From Lineolata rhizophorae (lineage: Eukaryota > Ascomycota > Dothideomycetes > Lineolatales > Lineolataceae): a DNA stretch of 64,000 nt. A program made the translations under genes and the position numbers. Positions within the stretch are counted from its first letter, which is position 1, and each line of letters begins with the position of its first letter. This document shows positions 49,513 through 63,897 of the stretch, piece by piece. The stretch lies in assembly GCA_010093515.1 (NCBI GenBank), contig MU001701.1:1-64000 (forward strand), read 5' to 3'. A model generated the notes under the pieces. It searched no databases. It saw only the letters and a list, made by a program, of their open reading frames with translations, and was not told the origin of the DNA.

Positions 49513-49631
49513 ACGTACGACCATAGACTGTGGAATGCATCGGGTCCCGTCCGCTCCCCTGTAATTAAGCCACAGATCGCTGGACTAGTACTTCGGTGGG
49601 TGACCACGAGGGAATCCCCGGTGTTGTACGT
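49513..49631 (+). rRNA. 5S ribosomal RNA
   Basis: A 119-nt match to fungal 5S rRNA: it begins ACGTACGACCATAGACTG, contains CCCGTCCGCTC, AAGCCACAGATCG (A-box region), GGTGGGTGACCACGAG and GGAATCCCC (C-box region), and ends GTTGTACGT. Helix I pairs fully (ACGTACGAC with GTTGTACGT, one G-U). A T run follows at 49631-49634 and again at 49636-49643, as expected for an RNA polymerase III terminator. It stands alone, in keeping with the dispersed 5S genes of filamentous ascomycetes. Confidence 0.93.
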
Positions 49632-50101
49632 TTTGCTTTTTTTCCGGGTCTGGTGTTCAAGAACGAAGCATGCGATATCACCGATAGCATCCAAGAAGTG
49701 AGGTAAGTTTGGATTTTGGTATGTCGATGCGTGGAAAGCCGCAACGGTTTCGGTCCTGCACTCCCTAGTTACCGAGCGGAATGATCACGACAATATCCTC
49801 CAACAACACGTTCTGGTGAGAACATTTTCCTTATTCGGTGCTTCTCATAATACATGTTGAATTTTTTGGTCCCCTTCGTTGTCGTACTCCATACAGTCCT
49901 TTTCGCGGACCACAATTGGTATATGCGCTTCCAGCGTCGTTCCAAGACCTAGCGCCCTTTTTCATGTTAAATGAAAAAGCATCTTACTCCACGCTCCGCC
50001 CTATGCCTAACAAAAAAAAAAAAAAAAAAAAAAAAAAAGCATAGCCAACACGACCGTTGCCAGATAGCCAAAATCACCACTCAAAATTCCGGAGGCGGCC
50101 T
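49632..50101. other. Intergenic: 5S downstream and methyltransferase 3' region
   Basis: 470 bp containing a pol III T run, then ordinary sequence, then a 27-A homopolymer at 50012-50038 shortly before the end of the MetE-like gene on the other strand. Confidence 0.45.
50012..50038. repeat. 27-nt poly(A) homopolymer
   Basis: An uninterrupted run of 27 A. It lies 380 bp after the 5S gene and 64 bp beyond the stop codon of the minus-strand MetE-like gene. It may be a retroposon tail or simple slippage; no flanking target duplication was seen. Confidence 0.9.
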
Positions 50102-53229: not shown

Positions 53230-54248
53230 CTACCATCCATCATCGATCCCCCTATCTTTCTCCGCCTTCCGCCTCTCCAGGGTCATATCCCACCACCATT
53301 CGTGCGGCACTTCCGTGGTTTCACCAGGCCGTTCGTCCCAGGGCTTCGGCGCCAGGATATAGTGCACATTCTTCACGCACTCATCCCGCCAGATCGGGGC
53401 GTGCACGTAGTCGTACCGCAGCGTCTTGAGCGCATTGTACACGTACGGCAACGCCACCCATCTCCCCGGGAACAGGTCCGCCAGCAGGCTCTGGTCCGCG
53501 AACTCGTAGCCAGCAGTGCTGGTCGCCTGCCCCAGGCGCTCGACGATGGCGTCGTAGACCTCCCGCGACGGGTTCACGACCTGGAGGCCGCCGTTGGGCA
53601 TGGCGAGCCCGGCCGTGGGCGGAGCGCCCTCGGCCTGTGCCCGCTCCGGCTCGCCGTGCTGCATCGTGAAGGCGCAGTTCGCCGGCACCCAGTCGCGCGG
53701 GTAGTGCGGCTTCCCGAGCGGGTTGCAGACGCAGGCGTGGGAGGCGGCGAAGGCGCGGGTCGCTTTGCCGTCGGCGGCGTCGGCGCCGGCGTCGAGCGCC
53801 AGCTCCATGAGCTCGTCCATGTTGCGCCGCACCAGCATGTCGCTGTCGAGCTGGACGACGCGGTCGTAGGCCGTCAGCGAGAAGGGCGTCAGCTTGCTCC
53901 AGCAGTCGTAGAAGCGCGGGTCGCGCGAGAAGTCCTTGGGCGTCGCCGGCAGCAGGTAGGCGACGCGCTGCCGGGGGATGCCGCGCGCGGCGAGCGCCGC
54001 GTGCCCGGCCGCCGGGAAGCCGTCCGTGTAGAGCGCGACGAGCGGGTAGGCGGACCCGGCCCGGCGCAGCGAGTACTCGAGCGTCAGCAGCCCGCTCAGG
54101 TACGCCGTGTTGGTTATGAGCGTCGTCCAGACTACAAAACGCTCGCGTCAGAACGCGTGCCTGCCCTCGAGCGCCCTCGTTGGGCCGACGCACCTTTCTT
54201 CGACTCGACGACGCGCTCCCCCGCCGTTGGGTCCGCATTTGGCGCCAT
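53230..54248 (-). CDS. GT8-like glycosyltransferase (glycogenin/Gnt1 type)
   Basis: Nucleotide-sugar transferase of the GT-A fold related to glycosyltransferase family 8 (glycogenin, galactinol synthase, fungal Gnt1-like). Exons 54248-54194 and 54131-53230 give 318 residues. The fold opens WTTLITNTAYLSGLLTLEYS and SAYPLVALYTD; the metal-binding DxD is in RVVQLDSDMLVRRNMDEL. NGGLQVVNPSREVYDAI and YEFADQSLLADLF are typical acceptor-side motifs, and KPWDERPG near the C terminus matches the K-P-W signature of the family. No signal peptide or membrane helix is evident, so it is probably cytosolic. The sugar donor and acceptor cannot be read from sequence. The intron (GTGCGT to TTGTAG) joins SKK to VWTT in frame. 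Confidence 0.88.
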
Positions 54249-54831: not shown

Positions 54832-56149
54832 ATGTCGGCTCCGGTGAGCGTAGCGCACGATGATCTTGCCGGAACGACCGGCACGGCCGGAAAGAGGAAG
54901 CGGACCCCCGTTACCTCTACCACGAGCAATTACAAAGGCTTCGTTGCCGGCGTGTTCTCTGGAATCGCGAAACTGAGCGGTGGGTGGCTTCGCATGTGCT
55001 TATTACTCGGAGACGGGCTGCGAGGACTAACGTGCGGACTCAATCGCAGTCGGACATCCGTACGTGCTGGCAGCAAAGGCGAAATGTTTGCCCGGTACCT
55101 AGTTCTGACCAGCTCCAAGATTCGACACGATCAAGGTTCGCCTGCAAACGTCCGAGAAGTCGCGGTTCCGCGGGCCGCTCGACTGCGTTCTCCAGACCGT
55201 ACGCAAAGAAGGCGTCTACGGCCTCTATAAGGGCGCCACGCCGCCGCTGGTGGGATGGATGTTCATGGACTCTGTGTAAGGGATTCTTGACACGCCATCC
55301 TGGCCAGCACAAACGGCGCATATCTGACGTGTCGAGCTTCGCGCAATAGGATGCTCGGCTCGTTGACGTTGTACCGGCGTATCTTGCGAGAAAAGGCGTT
55401 TAGGCCGAGGCAAACGGCCGACGGTGGGCCTGGCAAATTGCCGGCATTCGGCCACGGGGTGGCCGGTATGTTTGCCGGCTGGACCGTTAGCTTCATCGCA
55501 GCGCCGGTGGAGCACGTGAAAGCGAGGCTCCAGATCCAGTACCAGGCGAAGAAATCCCAACGCTTGTATAGTGGGCCGCTTGACTGTTCCAAGAAGCTGG
55601 TACGGATGCCCAAACGCTTGATCAGCTGCAGTCGTGTTCCATTTTAAGTGCTTCGGAGTCGGAGCGTACCCGTCGCGCGGCTCTTCTCTCCCGCGATGGT
55701 CTAGGTAGAATCTTGGAACCTGCAGCTAATGCAAGACACAGCTCAAATCGCACGGGATCCCGGGCCTGTTCCACGGCCTTAGCGCCACCCTCATCTTCCG
55801 CACCTTCTTCTTCTTTTGGTGGTCGACGTACGATCTCTTTACGCAGGCTCTCACCAGCCGTACGTCACTCTCCACGCCCGCCGTCAACTTCTGGGCCGGA
55901 GGCCTCTCCGCCCAGGTCTTCTGGATCACGTCCTACCCCTCGGACGTGGTCAAGCAGCGTATCATGACAGATCCGCTAGAGCCCGAGCGCCGTCGGTTCC
56001 CGCACTGGAAGAACGCGGCGAAGACTGTTTGGCGGGAAAGCGGGTGGCGAGGGTATTGGAGGGGGTTTATGCCGTGCTTTCTGCGCGCGTTCCCGGCCAA
56101 CGCGATGGCGTTGGTGGCGTTCGAGGGGGTGATGAGAGCGTTAGAATGA
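54832..56149 (+). CDS. Mitochondrial carrier protein (SLC25 family)
   Basis: Six-helix inner-membrane metabolite carrier. Exons 54832-54979, 55050-55059, 55120-55275, 55350-55599 and 55742-56149 give 323 residues. The three signature repeats are HPFDTIKVRLQT, APVEHVKARLQIQ and YPSDVVKQRIM, each ending a first helix of its module. Conserved blocks include GLYKGATPPLVGWMFMDSV, GMFAGWTVSFIAAPVEHVKA, FRTFFFFWWSTYD and FLRAFPANAMALVAFEGVMR. The latter resembles the carnitine/ornithine-like branch; the substrate cannot be stated. The second exon is only 10 nt and supplies VGH and part of Pro of the first signature. The final intron uses the CACAG at 55737-55741 rather than the nearer CTGCAG, since only that keeps LKSHGIPGLFHGL in frame. 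Confidence 0.93.
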
Positions 56150-57745
56150 GGCTTTTACGAGGCGCCATGTCAGAGCTGGTGCAAAGTGAGTGGGCTTTGT
56201 TTGTAGCCGATCGAGAGGCTCGTCATCCGAAAGACTCAGGCCGAGCTTTGTGCGGTGCACGATTACCGGGGCTGTCAGTGCAATGCGAACGGCTTGCGAC
56301 AACGTTGCAGGGTGAACACAGTCTTGTACCAAATGCTCGGTGGATTGCTAGAATCCTAACCCGAGTGCGTGCAGGCACTATCAATGACTTTACCAAGGTT
56401 CTAACGGTGCGAAGTCAATGTGTCACTCAACCTTGATTCTCACGAAGCTTGCTGTTGTATTTCCGCAATGTCTAGTTCGTTTATTGGCCAGACTTTTTTC
56501 ATCCTCGCAATCACATATTACCGTTCACATGTCTAGGTGCTTCCGATTGTTAGGTCCCATATCACTGCTATTTACAGTACTTGCATCTTCGGTTTTCTAG
56601 TGCTCAGCTACTTATCGAAGCTCAACATTTATATTACTTCCATATCTGCGCTATCTTCAACATAGCGCCTAAACGAGGGTCTGGGCACTAGTCTACACAA
56701 TATTCATTTTCTTTTCTTTTTTTTTTCTCGACCTAGATCTTTGGCAAACGGGTATATGCATGGTATGGCCAGTGTTACCCGGTCTTGATATGTGTGAAAC
56801 AGCGTAGTGTGTCCGTTTCCATATGAATCAAACGGGTACACCCATTATAAGGTAGGTGACCTCTTCTCGTTCATGATTGGACCGCCATCCTTCTGTTGGT
56901 GCATGTCTCAGCCCTGGAATCCAATCTAGACATTAACGGCCTCCAGCATCCAGTCAGGAGTTAGCCACAACAATGACATTCCACGTGGGCCAACAATACT
57001 GTCTCAGTGCTTTCTTCTCCAACTAGAACTATGTCGTATCACTTGCAGCAATCCTCACCACGTACAATTCAACCTGACGAGAAATGAGGCTTCCCTAGAT
57101 TAATAGAATGTTTGGTGATTCAATAGACAATGCTGTTTCTCGTTCGCCTCGCAGGACTGTGTGACTATTCCAGCGGGCTTCTGGAAGGTTCTTCACCGCT
57201 AGTGCGAACAGGAATAGCACACAGGGCGAATCAACCGTGAGACTGGGTCTCTGAGTCAATGAAGGTATGTCTATTAGCTCTTCGTCCCCAAAAGTGCCTA
57301 GCACCCGTGTACTACACGCAGTCATCCCTCTTTGGCCGAGCGACTTATTTGTCAAGCTCTCCCACATGTCTCACAATCATAAGGCTCTTTAGCAACACCC
57401 ATGCTACTGTAGAGTCAGGTTTCATGACTGGCACGACTATCGTGCTGGTCATTCCCGCTATAAAATCCCCCCTCTCTCCCCACTCCAACATTCGTTTTGT
57501 CGCTCATCTACACTGTCAACTCTTCTAAGGTTTACAACTCGTACCTTGACTAGACGCCCTCTTTTCATGTAAGTATAGTAGTATCTAGAAACGCACAGGC
57601 CCTGTATTCATGAACACTTTCCCCTAGTCCTCTCTTGTTTAGATGTGGACCTTTACAGTGCTCTTCATTGCTGGGTCATCTGACAAGACTAACAGAAAAC
57701 TCGACCGTCCCAACACTCAGGGTCTAATAGTTCACTTCTCTCATT
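56150..57745. other. Upstream region of the Argonaute gene
   Basis: 1.6 kb, AT-richer than average, with a T/C tract near 56709-56727. A TATAAAA box at 57459-57465 is followed by a CT-rich start-site region, and a possible 5' UTR intron runs from GTAAGTAT (57570) to GACTAACAG (57694). No other gene is supported. Confidence 0.45.
57459..57465 (+). promoter_or_regulatory. TATA box of the Argonaute gene
   Basis: GCTATAAAATCCCCCC is followed by a run of pyrimidines (CTCTCTCCCCACTCC), the usual fungal TATA plus CT start-site arrangement, 280 bp before the ATG. Confidence 0.55.
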
Positions 57746-60700
57746 ATGGGGAAAGAGAAAGAGAAAAAAGCGTTCTGTGAACGTTGCAACAAAAAGGGCC
57801 ACAAGACAGGAGACTGTGATCCCGGCAACGAACCGGAATGGCCGAAGGCGCTGATCAAGAGCCGCGCCGACTTTGATCGAGCTGAAGCTCAGTGGCAGCA
57901 GGCTTACGAAGCTAGGAAAGCTGACAACACATCTGGATCAGCGGGCCCCGCAGCACCCATTGCTCCTGTGGCATCGGCTCCTGTGACATCGCCTGCTGTG
58001 GTGTCTCCTTCTGCGGCAGCTACTACACCCGCCGCTCCCACTCCTGCGGTGCCAGCTCCTGCGGTATCCGCTCCTACGGTATCCACTCCTGCGGTATCAG
58101 CTCCTGTGGCATCCACTCCTGCGGTACCCTTGATTCCGGCGGTGCCTCATCGGCCTAAACAGCCACAGCAGCCTTTGCCATCTAGTCCCGCGGAGCAGTC
58201 AATCAAACCATCCTCGAGTAAGCTACGGCAGTCTTCGCCGTGGCGTTCTGCGCAGCAGCCTACCAAGCCGCCCCCGAGTAAGCCACAGCAATCTTCACAC
58301 TGGGGTCCCACGCAGCATCCCGCCAAGCCATTCTCGAGTAAGCCACGCCAGCCTACATCGTGGGGTTCCCTGCGGCAGGCGGCCGAGCCATCATCGAGTA
58401 AGCTGCGCCAAACTGTGCCGTCGGATCCTACAGTACAGACAACCAAGGCGTCATCGAGTAAGACTGGGACTAAGGCGCCTTCTACGGTAAACCTTTCCCC
58501 GCGGCCCGGTCTGACTGACCCAGATGACGAGACGGCAACGGAATGGCCGAAAAATTCTGTGCCATTACCTTCGTCGAGAGCACTAAGTGCTGAAGATAAG
58601 AAACGTGCGAACGGTCAGGCCCGTGTTTGTGCGGGTAAATTTCTTGGGGATCGAATGCTGTCACTTAAAGGGCTGGCCGACGTGCGGCAAGCAACATTTC
58701 CGATTCGGGAGTCCTTCGCTTCAATGGCAGAGCAGGGGAACTTGGTGTGGACCAATTACTTTAAAATCAACATACCGAACAGGAATCTCAGGCGCTATCC
58801 AATCGGAGGGATTCGCGATAATGCCAACAAGAAACGCAGTAATTATCTTGTTCGGCAGTTTGTCCAGAACAATTTTATCCTGAACCAGCCTCACTTTCGC
58901 AGTGGCTTTGTGGTGGACGGTACCAACGTCTACACATTCGATGACTACAGCATTTCCACGAGGGAGCACGGCGATCGATGCTTTACGACGGTCAATGATC
59001 CCCAACGTGGCGACAGCTCCAGAACTGAAGGAGTTACCACTGTCACGCTTGAGTTGCGAGTTGACGACTGTTATGAGTACAGCTTTTCTCTTTTGCGGGA
59101 GTACATTCAAAGCGGGCGCACACCCTTGGAGACAAGCTTTGACGGTATCGAAGAGCTATCGCACATCAACCGCCTTTTGTCGCATGCAAAGCTTCGCTCT
59201 AAACATCGTACCTTTTCAGCTAGCAAAGGTACCAAAGTCTATCGCAAAGACGGATGGTCCGAACTTGCTCCCTCGTTGCTGGCCGCTCGTGGCTACTTTT
59301 CGAGTGCTCGTGCACTTATGGCTGGTTGCCTGCTCAATGTCAACGCCGTCACGGGCTCATTCTGGGCCGCCAAGAATGTGGGAGAAATCTTGTACGATTA
59401 TGGCCCTACGCGTAAGGTGGATGTCGAGCATGACGTCAAGGGGCTCAGGGTAATCAAGCTGTACGGCAATGGAAGCAAACATACTGTCTTTGGACTTGGC
59501 AAGCCCCCCGGCGAACAGACGTTTACAATCAAGAGAAAAAACGGTGAGACAGAACGAACTTCGGTCCAGCGCTATTTCCAAGAAGGTGAGTTCACATCGA
59601 ATTGCTTCTTGTCTTATCGTGTCAATTACTAATTCCTGTGGATGTTTAAGTATTGGAAATACACATCAATTATCCAGAATCTCAATGTGTGAATGTAGGA
59701 GGCAGCGGAGAAAAGGCGCAATGGATCCCTGCGGAGCACCTGGGCATCCTTCCATTTCAACCCTATACTAAGCAACTCCCCCCCGATGCCACTAAAGCAA
59801 TGATTCTGCAGGCTTGTCGTGGACCAGCGGATAATCGAAACGCGATTTTAAAAGAAGGCCTAGAGTGCCTTGGTCTCGCTGATCCTACAGAGCGGTCGCA
59901 CGTTCTGGTATGTCGCATGTTCTCCAACCTAACTTGATATACGTGCCTGTTGGCTAACAACTAGTATTAGGCCGTTGCTAACATGCTTCCCGCAATCTTT
60001 GACATGGTTTCTGTACCCCGTCGACAAATCCAAGCCCCCTGTGTCGAGTATAGAGATCAAGCGAGGCCGGACGCCTCACGAGGAAACTGGAACCTCAAGG
60101 GTTGCAAATTCTACAACGTTCCGCGAGACACTTATCGAGGCGGAGTTTTGTATCTTGTCCCTGGGAACGTAAACCCCACGGACATAGGTTATCTCCATCG
60201 AATTCTTTTCGAAGACGCGATGAAGAATCATGGTTTTAATTGGGAGCCTGCGTGGGTCGACAACTTGCAGTTCTCCAGCAACAGAGAAGGTCATTGGGCT
60301 AGCGTTGTGGACAAATACGTCGCGGAATGGACCAGCGATGGAATTCGAAGCGATGGCACGCCATTAGTGGTGCTAATTACGGACAAGCCCAAGATCTACG
60401 GCGAATTCAAGACGAAGATGGACCGCGACCTGGGTGTACACTCGATTTGCCTGCGATCCGACACCCGAAGGTTTCGAGATCGAATCCGTAATTATCGTAT
60501 CGGCAGCGAGAACCCAAGTAGTGGTGATCTCAACTTTTTTGCGAACATCAGCATGAAGCTAAACCTGAAGCGCGGTGGTACAAATCATATTGTCAAGCCT
60601 TCCGGTTTGGCAAAACTGTTTGGGGTTCAAGGAGTGAAGACTCTTGTTCTGGGGGCCGACGTTACCCATCCCGGATCTGGGTCTGGTTTTGCGCCGTCAA

Positions 60701-61602
60701 TTGCAGCTCTCGCTGGAAGTGTTGATGGCAAATTTGGTAGATTCTTGGGCTCCATGCGTCTCAATCCTAGGCGACAAGAAGTAAGTGAACTGCACGAGTT
60801 CCGTTCCTGCCGGGTGGTGGGTTCCATTGCTTATGGCTTCTGCAGATTATCGCCGACATTGGAGCAATGGCCCTGGAGAGGATCCGCGACTGGAAGGAAG
60901 AAAACGGCCGCTTGCCCGAAAGCATCCTTTACTATCGCGACGGCGTTGGCGAGAGCCAGTACCGAGACGTTTTACGAGACGAAGTCGACAAGATTCAAGC
61001 GGAATGCCGGCAGCGTTTCCGCGAATACAATCCCAGAGTGACCGCTGTCATTGTCACCAAGCGCCACCACACACGCTTCTACCCTACATCCGAAATTAGA
61101 AGCGCGGCCAATGGCAACTGTCTGCCCGGGACTTGCGTTGAGTCTGGCGTCACATCGCCATATTACTTTGACTTCTACCTGCAGAGCCACCACGGCATAC
61201 AGGGGACAGCCAAGCCAGCGCACTATTTCGTCGTCCGCAACGACATGAGGCTTAGCGCGGCAGAGCTGCAAGACCTGGTGAGTCGGAGCATCGCGGTTTG
61301 CTACTCCGCGTTTGGCGCCGTTGCTGACGTGTCAACAGACGCACAACCTGTGCTACACCTACGTCCGCTCTGCGGCCGGCGTCTCGTACGCAGCGCCGGC
61401 TTACTACGCCGACAGGCTTTGCGAACGCGGCCGCAGCTACCTGGGCGAGTTCAGCCGGCGCAACGACGCGAGCCCGCCGGAACACATGACTCAAGAAGAA
61501 GGCGAGGATGCCGTCTTCAATCGCGCTGTGCAATGGTGGACCAGGGACAACGACGGCAATCCTTGGCACCAGGGCCTCAGCAAGACGATGTTCTGGATGT
61601 GA
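57746..61602 (+). CDS. Argonaute with N-terminal CCHC zinc knuckle
   Basis: Argonaute/PIWI protein, the small-RNA-guided effector of RNA silencing (QDE-2/SMS-2 class of filamentous fungi). Exons 57746-59585, 59651-59907, 59971-60780, 60846-61277 and 61339-61602 give 1200 residues. N to C: a perfect CCHC zinc knuckle (Cys11, Cys14, His19, Cys24); an Ala/Pro/Val-rich linker to about 150; four 20-residue repeats (155-235) with W166, WG186-187 and WG206-207; N domain; ArgoL1 (SLLAARGYFSSARALMAGCL, about 510-560); PAZ to about 690; MID; PIWI. Slicer residues are D929 (GADVTHPG), E969 (RRQE), D1001 (YYRDGVGE) and D1138 (PAYYADRLCERG), spaced 40, 32 and 137, so a DEDD tetrad. The first exon is intron-free for 613 codons. 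QDE-2 or SMS-2 branch is not resolved. Confidence 0.95.
58208..58465 (+). repeat. 60-bp coding minisatellite in Argonaute, 4.3 copies
   Basis: Units start at 58208, 58268, 58328 and 58388, with a partial fifth at 58448. Each encodes about 20 residues opening P-x-S-S-K-x-R/Q-Q and ending near T/A-K/E. Copies 1 to 3 carry Trp at the same place (codons at 58241, 58301, 58361); copy 4 has lost it. Copies differ at several sites, so the array is not recent. Confidence 0.9.
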
Positions 61603-62228
61603 GCGCAGACTTGGCCGGGGTGCGGGATGGGACTGGTTTCTTTTCTTCCACTGTGGAAATGGCTGGGCAAGAAAACGAGACGCCGGCCTGTCCGTTTCCA
61701 CCATCTCTCTGAATGTTTCCTTGATAGAATGCTCTGCAATATGTTGTGCTGTCATCAACGCTGCGTTTGAAACCTGCGTGAACGTGCCCGCAGAGCCCGG
61801 CCCGGGCGGAGCGATCGCTAAGAATGGCTAGCGCCGCCGCAGCCCAGCCAATGGACGGGCCGCAAAACACTTGCTCGATTAGGCAATCGCAACTCCCGCG
61901 GCTGGGGGCGCCTGCCCCGCCCGTGCGACGTTCAGCAAGATCTGGTCGGCGCGGGGCAGGCGCCATCGCGGTGCCGGGTCGACGCTTCCAGGCTTGTCCA
62001 ACGTGCCGGCGCCGCCGCTGCCGCCTGCGGCCCGCCGGGGCATCTGCGGTTTATCCGCGCGCACGCAACCCGCACCTCCAGCCCGATGCCGCGCCTCTGC
62101 ATCCTTAGCCCGCTCCCCTTCACTGTCGTCGCCGCGCCGCCGCCACACTCGTTAGCCTTGCATCTTTCCCCGCAGCATCCACTCCTTGCATATCCGCTTA
62201 CCGGTCCTTGCGCACTTCGTCGCCCGCA
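61603..62228. other. Intergenic: Argonaute 3' end and OYE promoter
   Basis: 626 bp, GC-rich from 61850 to 62100 with frames on both strands that carry no motif. Two CT-rich stretches precede the next start codon. No additional gene is supported. Confidence 0.4.
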
Positions 62229-63897
62229 ATGTCGCAGAGCACCGGCTCTTCCAGTGGCGACGTCGACATGCCCGACGTCGAGCATGGTTCCCCCATCGCT
62301 ACAGAGCCGGGCAGTGACCGCGCCCTGAAGTCGTCGTCGGAGCGGCACGTCTATCACCGCGACATTGACATCAGCCCGCTCGGCCGGCCCATCGTTTTCG
62401 AACACGGCGAGCGCGTGGCCAAAAATCGACTTCTCAAAGGTGAGACATCAGTATCCTTCACGATTCGATGCCTCGTCCGTTCGCTAACACAGTAGCACCG
62501 CTTCTTACATAGCGGCTATGACCGAGCGCATGGCATCGTGGCACCCGACGAATCTAGCGCAGCGCGGTGTGCCGACCGCCGACATGGTTAGAGTAAGTTT
62601 CTCAGCCTCACCTTGTCGACTGTCTGCCTGGCTTTTCAGTTCCAAAACAGGTTCCCTTCGATTTAACACTAGCGTTCTCTAGTTGTACGAACGTTGGGGC
62701 GAAGGCGGTTACGGTGTTATCATCACGGGCAATATCTTCATTGCGAACGACCAGCTCGAATCACGTGGCAACGCCACCATCCCCCTAAATTGCCCGTTTC
62801 ACGATGAACGTTTCGATGCCTACGAAGACATTGCGGGGGCAGCCAAGAAGCACGGTTCGCTCATCGTAGCTCAGTTGAACCACCCTGGTCGCCAGGTCCC
62901 AATCAGCATCAACGCAAACCCCATCTCCGCGAGCAATGTCAAACTCGAAGTAAGTCACCCTGATCCCTCTAGGTGAGCCTTATGTCCGTGAAACTGAAAT
63001 CTGACTGTGATGATGCAACACCAGGGTGTTCACTTGAACCAGATCTTCGGCCCACCGCGCATGGCCACGGCGATTGACCTCTGGTATGTCGTGCAAGGCT
63101 TCGGCTACGCCGCAGAGTATCTTGAAGAGGTCGGCTTCGACGGGATTCAGATCCACGCCGCTCACGGCTATCTGCTCTCGCAGTTCCTGTCGTCCAACAC
63201 CAACCACCGACTCGACATGTACGGTGGCGATATTCGCGCCCGTGCGCGCCTCCTGACGCGCATCACGGATTTCTGCCGGCACCGGACGCGCAACGGCTTC
63301 ATCATCGGCATCAAACTTAACAGCGTTGAGTTCCAAGATGGCGGGCTGACGCCTGCAGAGGCGGCGGAATTGTGTGACATACTGGAGAGCACGGAGTCCG
63401 TCGACTTTGTCGAGCTATCCGGCGGCACCTACGAGCGCATGGCCTTCCGCCACCAGCGCGAAAGCACCCGTCGCCGCGAGGCCTTCTTCGCCGAGTTTGC
63501 CGAGCTCATCGTGCCACGCCTGAATCGAACCCGGTCGTATCTGACGGGTGGATTCCGGTCCGCGGGCGCCATGGCTGCCGCGATGGCCGAGTGCGGTGTT
63601 GACGGCGTGGGCATCGGAAGGCCAACGGCACAGGAACCGAACCTAGCTAACGGCATCCTCAAGCAAGAAATCCCGGGAGCGCTCAAACTGAAGATACCGG
63701 AGGAGAACTTTCCGGTCACGGTTGCGGCCGCTGGCGCGCTAATGCGCATGATCAGCGAGGGCAGGGAGCCTGCGGACTTAACCAAAGAGGAAAACGTCAA
63801 TGCCCTCATGCTACACATCACGGCTCATCTCCAGCGTATGCGCTACGACGTTATGTTAGCCGGGCATGCGCCCATGGTGAAGTCCTACGTGGATTAG
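62229..63897 (+). CDS. Old Yellow Enzyme-type NADH:flavin oxidoreductase
   Basis: FMN-dependent TIM-barrel ene-reductase of the OYE/NADH oxidase N-terminal family. Exons 62229-62439, 62513-62592, 62683-62949 and 63025-63897 give 476 residues. After about 45 disordered residues the barrel begins SPLGRPIVFEHGERVAKNRL and AAMTERMASW, the FMN-binding opening. Others are LYERWGEGGYGVIITGNIFI, VAQLNHPGRQVP (flavin-binding Gln-x-x-His), FDGIQIHAAHGYLLSQFLS, NHRLDMYGGDIRARARLL and GGFRSAGAM. The third junction joins KLE to GVHLNQIF. Fungal relatives act on enones, nitro compounds or in metabolite pathways; the substrate here is unknown. No biosynthetic cluster is visible beside it, although the window ends 103 bp later. 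Confidence 0.92.

Follow-up and report, generated by a model that had tools for sequence, protein, structure and literature searches.

A candidate zinc knuckle at the N-terminus of an Argonaute in the ascomycete Lineolata rhizophorae

Argonautes are generally thought to be directed to their targets by a guide, with no more help than a diffuse N-terminal tail can give. A gene of the Dothideomycete Lineolata rhizophorae raises the question of whether a compact zinc-binding module may also be attached to such an enzyme, and of what it would contribute. The gene lies in the first 64,000 nucleotides of contig MU001701.1 (assembly GCA_010093515.1), this whole stretch being the window referred to below. 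Its initial annotation proposed that the interval 57746-57830, corresponding to residues 1 to 28 of the predicted protein, encodes a CCHC zinc knuckle placed directly ahead of an otherwise complete Argonaute and possibly adding RNA binding.

As to the Argonaute itself, the gene model comprises five exons on the forward strand (57746-61602) with a product of 1,200 residues, separated by four putative introns of 61-65 bases each with canonical ends; the window carries short-intron genes. In this predicted splicing pattern, exon 1 (57746-59585) would encode the knuckle, a linker, the N domain, ArgoL1 and the start of PAZ, and exon 2 (59651-59907) the remainder of PAZ, as judged from the model and Pfam. 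MID, the start of Piwi and two of the catalytic residues, D929 and E969, would be contributed by exon 3 (59971-60780; model, Pfam and alignment), more of Piwi with the catalytic D1001 by exon 4 (60846-61277; model and alignment), and the end of Piwi, with D1138 at the fourth catalytic position, followed by the stop codon, by exon 5 (61339-61602; model and alignment). Piwi (residues 831-1146, E 2.5e-72), PAZ (residues 559-659, E 1.1e-9) and ArgoL1 (residues 505-540, E 8.5e-6, 25.8 bits against a cutoff of 22) all score above their Pfam cutoffs, the first two placing the protein among the eukaryotic Argonautes, while the N domain (ArgoN; 58745-59143, forward strand, residues 334-466) falls below its own (E 2.8e-4, 21.7 bits against 30.9) and the fifth family listed, PMBR, is far under its cutoff. 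In alignment with human Argonaute-2, the D, E and D of the catalytic tetrad are kept and an aspartate (D1138) stands at the position of the human histidine, so that the D-E-D-H/D set characteristic of Argonautes is present. A search of PDB sequences with the whole protein matches 44 distinct sequences, all labeled Argonaute, Piwi, QDE-2 or eIF2C except for one 'uncharacterized protein,' with the human Argonautes scoring highest. With only the MID stretch as query, four PDB sequences are matched, of which the first three are Neurospora crassa QDE-2 (best E 1e-7), SMS-2 being the other fungal type, and the fourth is a plant Argonaute 10; the QDE-2 chains in the PDB cover MID or MID-PIWI only, and with the whole protein the human Argonautes score higher. 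The core is thus an ordinary Argonaute and, by its sequence, apparently slicer-competent.

Among the 20 open reading frames (ORFs) of the window scanned with Pfam (18 of the 33 listed and two others), none matches a further silencing family, and 8 match no family at all. Neighboring ORFs match glycosyltransferase family 8 (53230-54147, reverse strand), a mitochondrial carrier (55730-56149, forward strand) and an FMN oxidoreductase (62998-63894, forward strand). A lone 5S rRNA gene is found at 49513-49632 (85.7 bits), which together with the short-intron genes is in keeping with a filamentous ascomycete.

Whether the knuckle belongs to the protein depends on where translation starts. Relative to the ATG at 57746, position -3 is an A and position +4 a G, and M1 is the sole in-frame methionine ahead of residue 304. 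The 303 codons preceding M304 contain no stop in this frame, compared to 6 and 19 stops in the other forward frames and 9, 4 and 13 in the three frames of the opposite strand; no stop interrupts the frame over the 613 codons that precede the first putative intron, as the initial annotation had stated, nor from there to 59629. Codon scoring (log2 per codon) gives +0.42 in frame for residues 1-40 (0.08 and 0.12 in the other forward frames) and negative values in all six frames for the two 120-base blocks upstream of 57746. In this first run, based on 8 training ORFs, the background stretch overlapped the upstream blocks tested; when the scoring was rerun on two other backgrounds, with 7 training ORFs after the one without a Pfam hit had been dropped, the reading frame of residues 1-40 was the only positive one (+0.18 and +0.11) and the upstream blocks were still negative. 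Residues 1-60 outscore the Argonaute core in all three runs (0.37 versus 0.00, 0.12 versus -0.06 and 0.06 versus -0.10), the core scoring this low and yet best among its six frames. The linker (residues 61-280) is different in that its reading frame is not top-scoring in any run (0.01 versus 0.38 and 0.40 in other frames in the first run; -0.29 versus 0.16 and -0.23 versus 0.25 in the repeats). Third-position GC within exon 1 is 0.58 in residues 1-60, 0.51 in the linker and 0.56 in residues 281-613, all below that of the window's 8 training ORFs (0.77). As M1 is the only in-frame methionine before residue 304 and codon scores turn positive from there, the knuckle is probably translated, and the proposed fusion to a complete Argonaute gains support from the gene model, the open frame, the single upstream methionine and the codon scores of residues 1-60.

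The alternative that the gene start is wrong, with translation from M304 or from some other upstream exon giving a protein without a knuckle, would draw on the poor in-frame scores of the linker and on an out-of-frame ATG at 57643, which, if the leader is unspliced, opens a frame of 45 codons overlapping the start codon. However, the leader probably contains an intron at 57569-57720 (forward strand), a candidate picked by eye from a GTAAGT donor, a CTAAC branch-like site at 57689 and a CAG acceptor, and its excision would remove the upstream ATGs at both 57610 and 57643. With the context of the ATG at 57746, the 303 open codons and the change in codon scores at this position also against it, we consider a misplaced start very unlikely. 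Exact joining of the candidate leader intron would leave, by eye, a mini reading frame of start, Val and stop at the junction.

Residues 11-24 (57776-57817, forward strand) spell an exact C-x2-C-x4-H-x4-C, as originally noted for the first 24 codons, with the ligand spacing of CCHC zinc knuckles and with glycine immediately before the histidine. When all six frames of the window are scanned, three matches to the bare pattern emerge: one match contains an internal stop, one is antisense to a linker repeat, and one is the Argonaute knuckle. Across 60 shuffles of the window under a first-order Markov model, stop-free matches to the bare pattern average 0.13 and matches to the Gly-His form 0.000, and the location within the first 24 codons of an enzyme acting on nucleic acids would make a chance occurrence less likely still. 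Residues 1-24 contain 8 K/R versus 4 D/E. When used as a query against the PDB, the knuckle alone (21 residues) lists 15 sequences up to E 10, 14 of them retroviral nucleocapsid or gag: eleven such sequences come first (E 0.057-0.84), followed by the splicing factor SLU7 (1.5) and three more nucleocapsid or gag sequences. With residues 1-61, the list up to E 5 comprises 12 sequences, of which the top four are unrelated enzymes, one adenylate cyclase and three amidinohydrolases, and the remaining eight are nucleocapsid or gag chains (E 2.8-5).

The likeness to retroviral nucleocapsid thus extends to ligand spacing and to the Gly-His pair. It does not extend to the number of fingers, two in the five nucleocapsid chains aligned and one here, nor to knuckle position 2, where each finger of those chains has an aromatic residue, a trait of the nucleocapsid subgroup and not of every knuckle, and where the present protein has a glutamate (Glu12). 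All Pfam knuckle models score under their cutoffs, the best being zf-CCHC_3 (16.8 bits against 27) and CLIP1_ZNF (16.6 against 25), followed by a B-box, copper fist and zf-CCHC_2, likewise under cutoff; a single short knuckle can score under a Pfam cutoff. Judged by its ligands, the knuckle likely binds zinc; base stacking of the nucleocapsid type is unlikely. The suggestion of RNA binding is supported only in part: the top nucleocapsid matches speak for it, weakly (best E 0.057), and Glu12, the Pfam scores and the unrelated chains ranking first with residues 1-61 speak against it, leaving RNA binding only plausible. A single-sequence AlphaFold2 model of residues 1-60, the structure prediction originally suggested as a check, has a mean pLDDT of 70.2 and a pTM of 0.40. 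It predicts a helix after the knuckle (residues 40-59; 57863-57922, forward strand) and draws another across residues 3-17, with the knuckle not formed, and as a single-sequence prediction it says little about the knuckle itself.

The knuckle does not stand directly ahead of the Argonaute, as had been thought, since 309 residues, largely low-complexity repeats, separate it from the ArgoN match starting at residue 334. The stretch includes an Ala/Pro/Val/Ser/Thr linker of 15-nt (5-residue) tandem repeats (57960-58142, forward strand) and five repeats of 60 nt (20 residues) that are basic and rich in Ser, Pro and Gln (58161-58460, forward strand), with residues 141-260 containing 16 K/R versus 5 D/E. 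Both unit lengths, 15 and 60 nt, are multiples of three and keep the frame. Identity to the reference copy is 60-84% in a 45-nt family and 63-70% in the 60-nt family; dN is lower than dS in 9 of 10 pairs of repeat units, the excess of third-position differences not being significant (77, 51 and 76 differences by codon position; permutation 0.24). With E values of up to 10 admitted, no Pfam family matches residues 43-291, and the composition suggests a disordered linker. The only repeats detected around the gene (56440-62250) are the linker families; no inverted repeats are present there, and thus no retroelement ends are seen in this interval. Three of the five 60-nt repeats (58221-58400) contain a tryptophan (W166, W186 and W206) at an exact 20-residue spacing, two of them as W-G, recalling the GW/WG motifs that bind Argonautes, in this case inside an Argonaute itself.

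N-terminal nucleic-acid-binding additions to ascomycete Argonautes are a class already known, of which the knuckle would be a variant. One example is AGO1 of Colletotrichum higginsianum, which, in the passages describing it, carries an N-terminal RGG box credited with nucleic-acid binding and protein interaction (PMC4890784); like the protein described here, it is an Argonaute of an ascomycete and has an accessory segment at its N-terminus, and it differs in that the segment consists of RGG repeats rather than of a zinc knuckle. Only standard domains are described, in the texts consulted, for FgAgo1 and FgAgo2 of Fusarium graminearum, for AGO1 and AGO2 of Verticillium nonalfalfae (by Pfam, CDD and SMART) and for QDE-2 of Talaromyces marneffei, and neither the papers on these three species and on C. 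higginsianum nor one further paper mention 'zinc' in their main text. Across the titles, beginnings of abstracts and selected passages covered by our literature search, no Argonaute with a zinc knuckle was encountered, which is not proof of absence; in the passages from other papers, zinc knuckle or CCHC is never joined to Argonaute, and one paper counts 12 unnamed CCHC-type factors. The present knuckle would likewise be missed by Pfam at its curated cutoffs, and the absence of knuckle-bearing Argonautes from the literature may thus reflect the tools used. Among contigs searched for relatives, the pattern was matched 4 times in viral contigs and 18 times in bacterial and archaeal genome contigs, with none confirmed in either set.

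What, then, might such a knuckle do? The reading we favor, tentatively and at somewhat less than an even chance, is of an Argonaute with an N-terminal accessory module of about 60 residues, made of the CCHC knuckle and the short predicted helix, that acts as a weak RNA-docking arm. The module would be tethered by the low-complexity repeat linker of approximately 200 residues (61-260) and some 70 further, unassigned residues before the N domain. The knuckle would touch unpaired RNA, of a target or of a precursor, raising the local concentration of RNA around the guide-loaded core, as has been proposed for the RGG boxes of other Argonautes. Contact with RNA is preferred here to docking of a protein as a matter of choice between two close options, docking being a close second. 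The knuckle of CLIP1 (PF16641), a microtubule-tip protein otherwise unrelated, binds a partner protein, and a knuckle of this kind could bring in a partner for silencing or anchor the Argonaute at a granule. This possibility, which we rate as on the unlikely side, is suggested by CLIP1_ZNF scoring level with zf-CCHC_3 and by the glutamate in place of the aromatic residue, both matches being, however, under cutoff, and the first eleven of the 15 PDB sequences matched by the knuckle being nucleocapsid or gag, with no CLIP1 chain among the 15.

It is less probable again that the N-terminal extension is translated with little selected function, as a fast-changing, low-complexity tail that passively retains a knuckle-like motif or has recently acquired one. 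The divergence of the linker repeats, the insignificant third-position excess, the poor in-frame codon scores of the linker and the position of the knuckle below all Pfam cutoffs would be in agreement with such a tail. The exact Gly-His motif, unexpected by chance in the shuffled window, would not, and neither would the in-frame scores of residues 1-60, higher than those of the core in every run. As to the tryptophans, they could form an internal 'Ago hook' folding onto the protein's own tryptophan pockets, a proposal compatible with any of the other readings and prompted by their even spacing in a Ser/Pro/Gln-rich stretch and by the two W-G pairs. Most of the residues that line the human pockets are, in a comparison by eye, changed here (W-K, for example, stands in place of the aromatic pair that follows the catalytic Glu), and the probability of such a hook appears slight in the extreme.

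Beyond the favored weak RNA-docking arm, one may speculate that a fungal Argonaute lineage gained a nucleocapsid-like knuckle on a long arm, as its own device for RNA capture or for recognition of retroelement RNA beside the guide, an idea that we consider quite improbable. If the zinc module is real, it would allow target capture or partner docking to be addressed separately. If the knuckle is not shared by relatives of this Argonaute, it would be a one-gene curiosity, and if it is, it would mark a sub-family of fungal silencing enzymes.
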